The notes beneath the pieces were generated by a model. The model was given only the letters and a program-made list of their open reading frames with translations. It did not search any database and was not told the DNA's origin. Below are positions 10,219 through 23,031 of a DNA stretch of 64,000 nt, piece by piece (the stretch's first letter is position 1; every line of letters begins with the position of its first letter). The position numbers and the translations under genes were made by a program. Where the stretch lies: assembly GCA_019096065.1 (NCBI GenBank), contig JAGUCH010000001.1, forward strand, positions 2,790,001 to 2,854,000, read 5' to 3'. This stretch comes from Paracyclopina nana. Its lineage: Eukaryota > Arthropoda > Copepoda > Cyclopoida > Cyclopettidae.

Positions 10219-10430
10219 ATAGAGAAAAGTTGTCGAGGATGCAAGCTCGCTTTTTTTGGTGGGCCATGGTTGTGACCCTTTCCAAAGATGGCGCTACAAA
10301 CTCATGAGAAAAATAGTTTTTTATACATAGTAACTTTTATGTAAGGCATGCCCATGTGTATTGGCTTTCCTTTGACTTCCTTCCTCACATTATTTCTATA
10401 GTTTATTTGAGAATCGAGTATGTTTCTTTT

Positions 10431-10721
10431 ATATACTGTAATACGATTTCCTCGTGTTATAATTCAGTTTACCGATCCGACTCAGCTCTTTTATATCACA
10501 GTTCTTTCTAAGCAATTTGGGGGATTTTAAATACTTAATGGCCCTGGAATCAAATTTGAGGGATTTTAAGTAATTTATATACTGTAATACGATTTCCTCG
10601 TGTTATAATTCAGTTTACCGATCCGACTCAGCTCTTTTATATCACAGTTCTTTCTAAGCAATTTGGGGGATATTAAATACTTAACAGCCCTTGAATCAAA
10701 TTTGAGGGATTTTAAGTAATT
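10431..10721. repeat. Direct tandem duplication, period 146 bp
   Basis: Two adjacent copies, 10431-10576 and 10577-10721, share almost the whole sequence beginning ATATACTGTAATACGATTTC; differences are limited to a few positions (for example GGCCCTGG versus AGCCCTTG). The start motif CTGTAATACGAT recurs inverted near 11153 (ATCGTATTACAG), suggesting the duplication lies inside a larger repeat unit. Confidence 0.85.
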
Positions 10722-10775
10722 TAATGCCCCTTATAGTCCCTGGAAGTAATCCAAATTCAAAGAAGTTGGAAAAGA

Positions 10776-20173: not shown

Positions 20174-20492
20174 CCTAATGACATTGCAACTTTCATAACT
20201 TATTGGTCTATGCCCTTATCTTATCTTACGCATTGCAGAAGAAGCGGTAAACAACGTTTCCCTACGTTTATAGTAGGCCTCCTGCATTTACTAGATTTTC
20301 TACCTAGGTGTAACAAAGTTTAACAAGAATGCGATTAGTAGGGCTATGTTAAAACGAAGATTTCAGCCGTTTGCATGCAAATCATTTATTTTTCTTAGAT
20401 GGAATAAAGTATATATTATTGTACATTAGTGCATATGATATGGTGTATTTTTGAGGGGATGATTTCGATGTCATATTTACAGATTAGATGAT

Positions 20493-22185
20493 TCACTCTG
20501 CCTGAAAAAAGGTTGGTAATGAGTATCTTCATTAGCGTCTTGTGACAACGACGCATTTTCAAACCTGCGTTACCTCTAAATTGCCAATTAGGCCGCCACA
20601 AATCAATTCCATAGCTTTGGCCATGCACATGCTGTCATCTTTCCCAACCGCCACAGATCGTTTTCCACTGGTCAGCCAATCGCGTGAGAAGTGTACCTTT
20701 TAAAAAGATGAATCAATCCTTGCAAGCTTTCAAGCACTTATTTCATAAGTCTAAACAGTCTAAACACTGCTTATGACTGCTCACACTGCTTATGACTGCT
20801 TATGACTGCTTATGACAGCTTACGAGTGCTTATGACTGCTTATGACTGCTTATGACTGCTCACACTGCTTGTAGTTGCTCACACTGCTTATGACTGCTCA
20901 CACTGCTTATGTCTGCTCACACTGTACTGCTTATGGCTGACTGCTCATGACTACTCATGACTACTAATGAAAGACAACAACAAAAAGTCTACAACAAAAT
21001 CATTTTGCTCAATTTTGTTTATTTTAGGGGAAATTGGACTTAATTGATCCGGTGTACTTTGTAAGTGGACTATATGCATTGCGGCAATTTTAAAAGGCAC
21101 AGTCAATCTCTTCAATACAGGAAGGCTTTCTTAAATTAAATTATTTGGGTGTGTTGCGCTGAAAGGTCACTTTGTGATATTTAACATGTTTTGCATCAAT
21201 TATGCTTAGAGAAACTTTCCTGTTATATTGCATTTTTGTGTCCTATATTGAGCTTAGTGGATTCATAATTTTTCATTAGTGACATTTTAAAGGCTGAACT
21301 CGATTTTGATTGCTACAATTCTCCTTTTAGAATCAAATCGAAATTTGGGAAGCAGTCATGATTGATCAGAAACTGAATGTGTGCAGCTATGCAGGGGGCT
21401 GCTCTGAAGAAGTAAATAAATGGACCTAACCAGCTGTAGCCCGGATGCAATTTCAGGGCTACACCCCATATACATCTTGAAATTTAGATTTTTTATAATG
21501 AAAAATTTAATTATGCTGCTAATGTGAGTGATTCAAATTGTATGCAATTATATTTCTGCTCTTATGAGCCATATAATCAGTCACAGTTTGTTATAAGCAG
21601 CCACGAGTTAGATTTTCATAAGTTTAGTCATAAGCAGTCATGAGCAATAAATGAGCAGTCATGAGTAGCCATAAGCAGTCATAACCAGTCATAAACAGTC
21701 ATAAGCAGTCATAAGCAGTCATAAGCAGTCATAAGCAGTCATAAGCAGTCACAAGCAGTCATAAGCAGTCATAAGCAGTCATAAGCAGTCATAAGCAGTC
21801 ATAAGCAGTCATAAGCAGTCATAAGCAGTCATAAGCAGTGAGAGCAGTCATAAGCAGTGTTTAGACACGGCCCTTATGAAAAGCAGCAAAATATTGTTTC
21901 ATATCATCTAAGCTTTTATCCAAGAATCTGGATAGAGCTAGTGAACGTGCCCTTGTCTCAATACTTTAAACCACTTACATTCTTGTTCTCAAGGGATCGC
22001 TTTCCGCTCCCTGCAAGCCAGTCTCTTGAAAAGGTTATCTGTGGGAACCCAACAGGAATTTTTAACAGCCTTTTAGGGGCTACAAATACGTTTACCTGAC
22101 TGTCAGCGCCCGATGAGACCACCACAAGAATGAAAACCACCATGAAGGCAAGAACAGTCGCATTACTGGGCCTCGTAAAGTTCAT
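20493..22185 (-). CDS. ACP/AKH-like neuropeptide precursor with two candidate peptide exons
   Basis: Signal exon 22096-22185 (30 codons, ending ...SSGADSQ with the donor directly after the Gln codon). Candidate exon 2a (21979-22038) begins ITFSRDWLAGSGKR. Candidate exon 2b (20574-20696) begins VHFSRDWLTSGKR and has a tail with two Cys (MCMAKAMELIC), then a tiny last exon 20493-20501 with a stop. All junctions are phase 0, so either exon restores an N-terminal Gln and predicts an amidated peptide: pQITFSRDWLAGS-amide or pQVHFSRDWLTS-amide. The SP-Q-(V/I)-x-F-S-R-D-W-GKR plan is that of the AKH/corazonin-related peptide family (insect ACP: pQVTFSRDW...). The spliced 2b form is 73 aa; the 2a form reads to a stop at 21958 (56 aa) or uses an unseen further exon. 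Between them lies an inverted satellite element. Whether 2a and 2b are mutually exclusive exons or two genes is open. Confidence 0.75.
20740..21885. mobile_element. Element with inverted decamer-satellite ends
   Basis: The left flank (about 20756-20960) is a degenerate array of ACTGCTTATG/TATGACTGCT units. The right flank (about 21606-21860) is a long, very regular array of the reverse complement CATAAGCAGT, with some 20 nearly perfect copies. The outer edges also match inverted (CATAAG...TCTAAACACTGCTTATGACT against the complement at the right end). The roughly 600-base centre is AT-rich without an ORF. This resembles fold-back elements with satellite-type inverted repeats. It lies between the two neuropeptide exons. 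Confidence 0.8.
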
Positions 22186-22492
22186 CTCTTTGCTTGTTGG
22201 CTGGGATATGGCTCAAATCGAATTGAAGTATGAATGCGTCTTGCCCACTGGCTTTATATAGCCGGGCAGAAATTGGAAGGAAGAAAATGTGGCAAAGGTG
22301 GTGCTTTTTTAATAATAGTGGGCATATACCTATAGTACTATAGTACTATATGTCCATAATTCATACTTGCTCTGTATCACAGCAAGCGCCGCCCAGCCCC
22401 CTCGTGTGAGATTGAAACTCATACCTCAAAGACCACTCGCGTTAAGGACGCCAGTTCCATTAGAGAGCTTTTTGAGGCCTAACGAAAGCGTG
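22186..22492. promoter_or_regulatory. Divergent promoter region
   Basis: Just 307 bases separate the start codons of the minus-strand neuropeptide gene and the plus-strand secreted-protein gene. The region holds the minus-strand TATA box and, at 22331-22350, a perfect 20-base palindrome built from TATAGTAC units. A splice acceptor-like CTGTATCACAG near 22381 may mark a 5' UTR intron of the plus-strand gene. Confidence 0.5.
22252..22260 (-). promoter_or_regulatory. TATA box of the ACP/AKH-like gene
   Basis: TATATAAAG on the minus strand, 67 bases upstream of the ATG at 22185, with a TTCAAT initiator-like sequence about 25-30 bases downstream. The same TATATAAAG core precedes the neuropeptide F gene in this window. 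Confidence 0.7.
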
Positions 22493-23031
22493 ATGAGGGT
22501 TTGCTTTGTGATCGTGGCTATGATGGCAACGCTCGTAGCTCTATCAACTGGCTCATTTCTACCACTACGAGTGCAAAGAAACTCTCGCGCATTGTTTGCA
22601 GAAAAGTGCATCAATGCTATGAAGAAGGGCTTGATCACTCCCCAAGAGGCGTTCGTGTGTGGAGTAATGAATACCTTGGTAAATGTACAAGCCAGCGAGC
22701 CAATACCCGATATGGAGGTGAGAGTCTCTTTTCGAGGGGAGAATACGTTTCATAATTGCTGTCATTATCATTATAGGGCAATCTGGACCAGGTATTGGCC
22801 AGCCAGCTCGAAAAGGCTGACCCCGACACCATTGGCCTCTCCATGATCAATGACCGGGCTCCCGAGGACGGCCTGTACGAGCCTGAGGCTGAGAATGCTT
22901 CTGCACTTGCTGTTGATGGCCGTTCCGAGCCGATGATGACTGAAGGCCAAAATGGAAGCAAGCCAAAGCTCCCGAAAGGACCCTACTTTTACTCCCCGAA
23001 TACGAGAACATGGACAAAGATTCGATTTTAA
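22493..23031 (+). CDS. Secreted protein of unknown family
   Basis: Exons 22493-22717 and 22777-23031 give 159 aa; the 59-base intron is phase 0. A clear signal peptide (MRVCFVIVAMMATLVALSTG) is followed by a mature region with two Cys near residues 39 and 57, then an acidic, Glu/Asp/Ala-rich middle and a basic end (NTRTWTKIRF). There is no transmembrane segment after the signal and no dibasic-amide processing site. The family is not recognised. It is transcribed divergently from the neuropeptide gene. An AATAAA at 23085-23090 lies 54 bases after the stop and abuts the 3' end of the convergent ANKRD26-like gene. Confidence 0.75.

Follow-up and report, generated by a model that had tools for sequence, protein, structure and literature searches.

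A putative cassette exon and duplicated peptide module in an ACP-family neuropeptide gene of a copepod

Two ACP-type peptide exons lie behind one signal exon

The 64,000-nucleotide stretch of Paracyclopina nana DNA analysed here (the window) carries on its minus strand one compact four-exon gene (22185-20493; coordinates checked by script), in which a single signal exon is followed by two peptide exons, here called 2a and 2b. We interpret it as one ACP-family gene with a duplicated peptide module, in which exon 2a is a cassette and the choice of isoform is made by splicing, a reading to which we give somewhat more than an even chance. An earlier note on this DNA had proposed that one gene makes two peptides by mutually exclusive splicing. 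Our analysis supports one gene with one signal exon and two ACP-type peptide exons in frame with a common Gln; strict exclusion is not supported, as a transcript joining exons 1, 2a, 2b and 3 is open over 93 amino acids.

Organisation of the gene

Exon 1 (22096-22185, 90 nt) opens with the ATG at 22185 and encodes MNFTRPSNATVLAFMVVFILVVVSSGADSQ, that is, the signal peptide MNFTRPSNATVLAFMVVFILVVVSSGADS followed by the Gln that would become pyroglutamate, whose codon CAG is the last of the exon and stands at the donor CAG/GTAAAC. Read by eye, a hydrophobic core is followed by Ala-Asp-Ser/Gln at the predicted end of the signal peptide, a site that suits signal peptidase with Ala in position -3 and Ser in position -1 relative to the Gln. 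A TATA-box-like sequence, GGCTATATAAAGCC, located by script on the minus strand at 22250-22263, 65-78 nt upstream of the ATG, may serve as a promoter element. Behind the 57-nt intron 1 (22039-22095), which has no in-frame stop, exon 2a (21979-22038, 60 nt) encodes ITFSRDWLAGSGKRSLENKN, read as ITFSRDWLAGS-GKR-SLENKN, and has a donor of its own, AAT/GTAAGT. The 1282-nt intron 2 (20697-21978), most of it a transposable element, separates exon 2a from exon 2b (20574-20696, 123 nt), which encodes VHFSRDWLTSGKRSVAVGKDDSMCMAKAMELICGGLIGNLE, read as VHFSRDWLTS-GKR-SVAVGKDDSMCMAKAMELICGGLIGNLE, and so carries both a peptide and a Cys..Cys tail behind the acceptor TTTTTAAAAG/GTA. The 72-nt intron 3 (20502-20573) leads to exon 3 (20493-20501), whose 9 nt form the three codons Ala-Glu-stop, the stop codon ending at 20493. 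Downstream of the gene, an AATAAA located by script on the same strand (20385-20390) is likely the polyadenylation signal.

These coordinates agree exactly with the earlier proposal that the signal exon ends on Gln (the CAG ends at 22096) and that the acceptors at 22038 and 20696 each open a phase-0 exon of the form (I/V)xFSRDWL...GKR; what it had missed is that exon 2a has its own donor, that intron 2 is mostly transposable element and that intron 1 is free of stops. The four coding exons (90, 60, 123 and 9 nt) are each divisible by three and all three introns (57, 1282 and 72 nt) are in phase 0, exon 2a thus being in phase 0 at both ends, so that either its inclusion or its skipping keeps the frame. 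The separate donor of exon 2a makes it a putative internal cassette, which must join 2b or exon 3, or else run into intron 2.

Two other features of the window were recorded. Head-to-head with the ACP gene, on the plus strand, lies an open frame (22319-22846) with MRVCFVIVAMMATLVALSTGS..., whose product is likely a small secreted protein; its 22319-22738 part gave no Pfam match. At 10428-10723, a 146-bp unit is present in two tandem copies with 97% matches.

Open isoforms and the strength of the splice sites

By script, three joins of the exons are open: inclusion of 2a (E1-2a-2b-E3), a two-peptide precursor of 93 amino acids; skipping of 2a (E1-2b-E3), a 2b-only precursor of 73; and E1-2a-E3, a form of 52 amino acids that lacks the Cys..Cys tail. 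Gln comes to stand directly before the 2b core only when 2a is skipped, and the 2b copy of the inclusion form lacks both an N-terminal Gln and a dibasic site directly before VHFSRDWL.

Splice sites were scored with generic consensus matrices, whose values were not trained on this genome, and ranked against the 3064 GT and 4158 AG on the gene's strand. By this generic measure the exon 1 donor falls within the top 2.1% of GT; exon 2a has an acceptor in the top 2.1% of AG and a donor in the top 1.0% of GT, exon 2b an acceptor in the top 6.9% and a donor in the top 3.2%, and the acceptor of exon 3 is in the top 0.4%. The 2b acceptor ends in AAG, not YAG, and scores below that of 2a. Because intron 1 is only 57 nt long and the 2a sites outscore the 2b acceptor, inclusion of 2a is probably the default. 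Exons of a mutually exclusive pair are expected to be homologous neighbours, as 2a and 2b are (11 of 14 aligned residues identical), and to break the frame when joined to each other; joining 2a to 2b leaves it unbroken. A cassette exon 2a therefore fits better than strict mutual exclusion, which is not supported given that the two exons are phase-compatible and the 93-amino-acid transcript is open.

Identity of the encoded peptides

The published ACP pattern is an amidated QXTFSRXW, with examples such as pQVTFSRDWNA-amide of mosquito and Rhodnius and pQITFSRSWVPQ-amide of a prawn (PMC5592718, available part). The predicted mature N-terminus of the 2a peptide, QITFSRDW, matches this pattern, and the GKR behind LAGS supplies an amidation signal and a dibasic site. 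That of the 2b peptide, QVHFSRDW, departs from it, having His for Thr at position 3, for which reason we call it ACP-like rather than ACP. The predicted products are pQITFSRDWLAGS-amide, with 12 residues, and pQVHFSRDWLTS-amide, with 11.

Profile searches gave a graded picture. Against the PF06377 (Adipokin_hormo) cut-off of 22.9 bits, exon 2a alone reached 24.2 bits in the genome search and the E1-2a-E3 isoform 24.9 bits; the inclusion isoform reached 39.1 bits in two stretches, and the skip isoform, with 20.4 bits and an E value of 7.1e-4, fell just under the cut-off. Across the genome at E<=10 the profile gave two matches, of which exon 2a was the only one over the cut-off, and exon 2b was not listed; this search is not exhaustive, as an AKH-like gene found by pattern (below) was likewise unlisted. 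The second match (18.8 bits, under the cut-off) lies in repetitive sequence and was rejected as unrelated. No other place in the 92-Mb genome thus passed the Adipokin_hormo cut-off in this search.

A search for the F-S-R-D-W-L pattern, with Ser written only as TCN and Leu only as CTN, returned four matches in the 91,952,342-base genome, and the reversed control 0 and 0. Two of the four are exons 2a and 2b themselves, 1.3 kb apart on one strand; the others (L003 and L004) have no GKR behind them and surroundings that are not ACP-like, and were discarded as chance. The corazonin pattern FQYS..GW had no match in the genome, a search that a split or variant corazonin could escape.

Exons 2a and 2b differ mostly by silent changes

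Over 14 aligned codons, 2a and 2b have 11 residues in common, and 7 of these 11 codons differ silently. The corresponding pS and pN are 0.77 and 0.16; placing the gap in the other position gives 0.75 and 0.20. When the 13 differences were placed at random, 13 of 55,770 stop-free trials kept at least 11 residues, and with the other gap placement, which has 14 differences, 4 of 54,706 random trials kept as many residues as observed; these figures refer to 14 codons of one sequence pair from one genome, aligned because they are alike, and do not date the constraint on 2b. They suggest that both 2a and 2b have been selected as peptides, and 2b probably encodes an independent peptide.

Data on the Aedes ACP receptor bear on how 2b would be used. 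In the available part of that work, replacing pGlu by Ala costs 411-fold and Thr3 by Ala 551-fold in activity, and the non-amidated peptide is more than 1000-fold weaker (PMC6838013). As loss of pGlu costs 411-fold in Aedes, a conserved 2b core makes most sense if 2b is sometimes joined to the Gln of exon 1. An occasional direct join to exon 1 would be the simplest reason for the kept 2b core, an argument rather than a demonstration, and we regard the junction of exon 1 to 2b as likely to be used.

No separate signal exon for 2b was found

The earlier note had named discovery of a separate signal exon for 2b as grounds for giving up its proposal; such an exon was sought in intron 2 and, by similarity, in the whole genome, and none was found. 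Searched at E<=10, the 93-amino-acid precursor had three matches in the genome, all three at this locus, so that no second signal exon for 2b appeared elsewhere by similarity, a search that a dissimilar one would escape. Intron 2 contains seven candidate frames that open with ATG, run for 15 codons or more and close at a GT in phase 0, none of them a convincing signal exon. Two candidates share the highest hydrophobicity (1.92) and belong to a single frame, with alternative ATGs, that lies within the transposable element; judged by eye, this frame is not a typical signal peptide.

A Foldback-like element occupies intron 2

The element within intron 2 extends over about 20758-21872, its ends being approximate and set by eye from the flanks. 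Its arms are inverted and built of tandem units of about 10 bp, (ACTGCTTATG)n, the best pair of arms reaching 96% complementarity over 103 nt. Long inverted arms of short tandem repeats, which we take to define Foldback-type transposable elements, are thus present here; target duplications of such elements are about 9 bp long. Compared with the genome, the element has at least 65 matches (40 of 81 candidates scored). Among the matches listed are two near-full-length copies elsewhere that are 98% identical, on account of which the insertion looks young, and most of the others listed are short matches to the inner stretch. By eye, two of the three copies appear to be flanked by 9-bp duplications, L008 by CTTTGTATC and L009 by CAATTTCCG. 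In the gene's own copy CTTATGAAA stands on one flank and its reverse complement, TTTCATAAG, on the other, with no direct repeat, which suggests a rearranged end.

Without the element, intron 2 would measure about 160-170 nt. A fold of the complete intron, computed without a shuffle control, predicted 205 pairs more than 700 nt apart, and the foldback arms could in this way draw the two peptide exons towards each other in the pre-mRNA. That predicted fold also pairs the 2a donor, namely the six bases with which the intron begins, so that splicing could be either helped or hindered.

Weighing the explanations

Cassette splicing of 2a is favoured by the open isoforms, by the finding of a single signal exon, by the silent divergence of the two exons, by the 411-fold cost of losing pGlu in Aedes and by a GnRH-superfamily receptor encoded in the genome (below); against it stand the weaker 2b acceptor, the small basis of the selection test, the off-pattern His3, at a position where Ala for Thr costs 551-fold in Aedes, and the absence of 2b from the PF06377 genome search. 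A somewhat unlikely alternative is that exons 1, 2a, 2b and 3 are always joined, giving pQITFSRDWLAGS-amide, with the 2b copy either released as SLENKNVHFSRDWLTS-amide or serving as a linker, and no regulated splicing. The frame runs open across all four exons as such a precursor would have it, the short intron 1 together with the better 2a sites makes skipping unlikely as the default, and the foldback arms could draw 2a towards 2b in the predicted fold, where the paired 2a donor could oppose this. What a constitutive precursor leaves without a reason is that 2b has kept FSRDWL and GKR while its codons diverged; moreover, the dibasic site that would free the peptide directly before VHFSRDWL is absent, and an ACP with Ala in place of pGlu is 411-fold weaker in the mosquito. 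That 2a and 2b are never used together, 2a being spliced to exon 3 or ending within intron 2, seems improbable: although E1-2a-E3 is open and passes PF06377, its 52 amino acids are without the Cys..Cys tail, the two peptide exons are compatible in phase, an element-free intron 2 is short, and nothing in the sequence forbids joining them.

We consider it very improbable that 2b is the remnant of a tandem duplicate whose signal exon was lost and whose peptide fell into disuse. Shrimp do have ACP genes in tandem (PMC11673531, available part) and the His3 of 2b is off consensus, but 2b retains an intact core, amidation site, KR and reading frame as well as intact splice sites, silent changes are in excess, and the Cys..Cys tail is encoded in 2b, from which the frame continues to the stop codon. 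Hardly credible, finally, is that intron 1 is read through, which would place a KR-containing spacer before a longer, unblocked peptide; its 57 nt are indeed in frame and stop-free, yet both of its sites rank in the top 2.1% by the generic matrix, splicing puts the Ser/Gln cleavage right before the peptide, and in the polyneopteran precursors covered by the available part of PMC7179676 ACP directly follows the signal peptide.

A possible mechanism and its meaning

Under the cassette reading, the position of an intron just after the Gln codon would allow two peptide exons to share a single signal exon and a single pyroglutamate. With 2a included, probably the default, the 93-amino-acid precursor would yield pQITFSRDWLAGS-amide, and the 2b copy would be released only in N-extended form, as SLENKNVHFSRDWLTS-amide, which by analogy with published structure-activity data is expected to be a poor agonist. 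With 2a skipped, the 73-amino-acid precursor would yield pQVHFSRDWLTS-amide, the C-terminal tail remaining unchanged. The partner chosen at the exon 1 donor would then act as a switch, deciding whether a canonical ACP or its His3 variant is made.

As a tentative extension, which we think possible rather than probable, skipping of the 60-nt cassette may act as a ligand switch, in which the mature peptide is exchanged after residue 1, a Thr3 ACP giving way to a His3 form that prefers a different receptor. Splicing in the secreting neuron would then decide which receptor is addressed, and the ratio of the two peptides may have been shifted by the recent insertion of the foldback element. If true, an ACP-type ligand would have diversified without gene duplication, with one pyroglutamate common to two peptide exons, and the receptor loci described below permit a direct test of joint ligand and receptor diversification. 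For annotation, the lesson would be to seek a cassette and not just an either/or pair.

Comparison with known ACP genes and similar systems

Like other arthropod ACP genes, this one encodes, in 2a, a QXTFSRXW peptide followed by an amidation signal and KR, which in a short precursor would stand immediately after the predicted signal peptide; unlike them, it has two different ACP-type cores in one gene and an intron between Gln1 and residue 2. That intron is missing from the only other ACP gene structure compared, that of Litopenaeus vannamei, in which, according to the available part of the source, the first exon holds the signal peptide, the mature ACP and part of the tail, and which has 10 ACP genes (PMC11673531). 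Polyneoptera as a rule have one ACP precursor, in which ACP immediately follows the signal peptide (PMC7179676), one proturan has two ACP precursors (PMC4770511), and in Daphnia pulex ACP had not been identified (PMC5537346), each as given in the portion of the source at hand. As far as these partial sources go, the literature describes one mature ACP per ACP gene, with diversity arising from gene copies. ACP from alternative exons is not described in the accessible portions of PMC4237046, PMC4888303, PMC6585902, PMC4696782 and PMC11672810, and in the part of the open-licence literature covered we found no comparable two-exon ACP gene.

His3 and an FS..W core are features that the 2b peptide has in common with molluscan AKHs, for example pQIHFSPDWGT-amide of Aplysia and pQIHFSPTWGS-amide of Lottia (PMC5592718, available part), but 2b differs from these in its ACP-like Arg6-Asp7 and in its place within an ACP gene; the likeness is probably convergence at position 3.

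Alternative splicing between two versions of one neuropeptide has precedents, known to us from partial texts. The locust myosuppressin gene gives two mRNAs, each with a different myosuppressin (PMC4237046); there, in another peptide family, both mRNAs are supported by reads, whereas here the use of both forms is deduced. DH37 and DH47 offer a further case (PMC6585902). The closest known architecture has one first exon and two peptide exons thought to have arisen by exon duplication; in the present gene, by comparison, the join of both exons is also in frame and the shared exon contributes residue 1 of the mature peptide.

Related genes and candidate receptors elsewhere in the genome

A pattern search identified an AKH-like gene on the same contig, outside the window (L017, G000:C1:4559572), in which a signal peptide is followed by SRSKR-SVNFTPSW-GKR. 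The usual N-terminal Gln/pGlu of AKH is seemingly absent from it, Ser standing in its place, and no suitable splice site was seen by eye; its PF06377 score, 17.3 bits, is under the cut-off. A second match to the AKH pattern (L018) lies in repetitive sequence and was set aside.

Receptors were sought with sequence motifs at 30 loci of the 155 PF00001 matches, so that the count of receptors is a lower bound. One of the 30 scanned loci, L046, is GnRH-superfamily receptor-like, its three best solved relatives being GnRH receptors; at least one receptor of this superfamily is thus encoded, judged by sequence. Seventy residues of L046 had six matches in the genome, namely itself and then others at 74, 42, 37, 29 and 33% identity. 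The 74% match, L062 (C1:3874452), shows this identity to L046/L061 (C1:9136807) over 54 residues of the TM2-TM3 region, and L046/L061 and L062 are candidate AKH and ACP receptors.

Two further observations concern the genome at large. PF00379 (Chitin_bind_4), a cuticle-protein family typical of arthropods, has 80 matches in it, which points to an arthropod. An arginine kinase fragment (L023, G000:C8:2693723-2694419) looks unusual: among solved structures its best relative is a two-domain arginine kinase, and its scores against creatine kinases and against single-domain arginine kinases, some of which are from arthropods, are about equal. Genes similar to it lie at C8:2696007 and C3:8268781.
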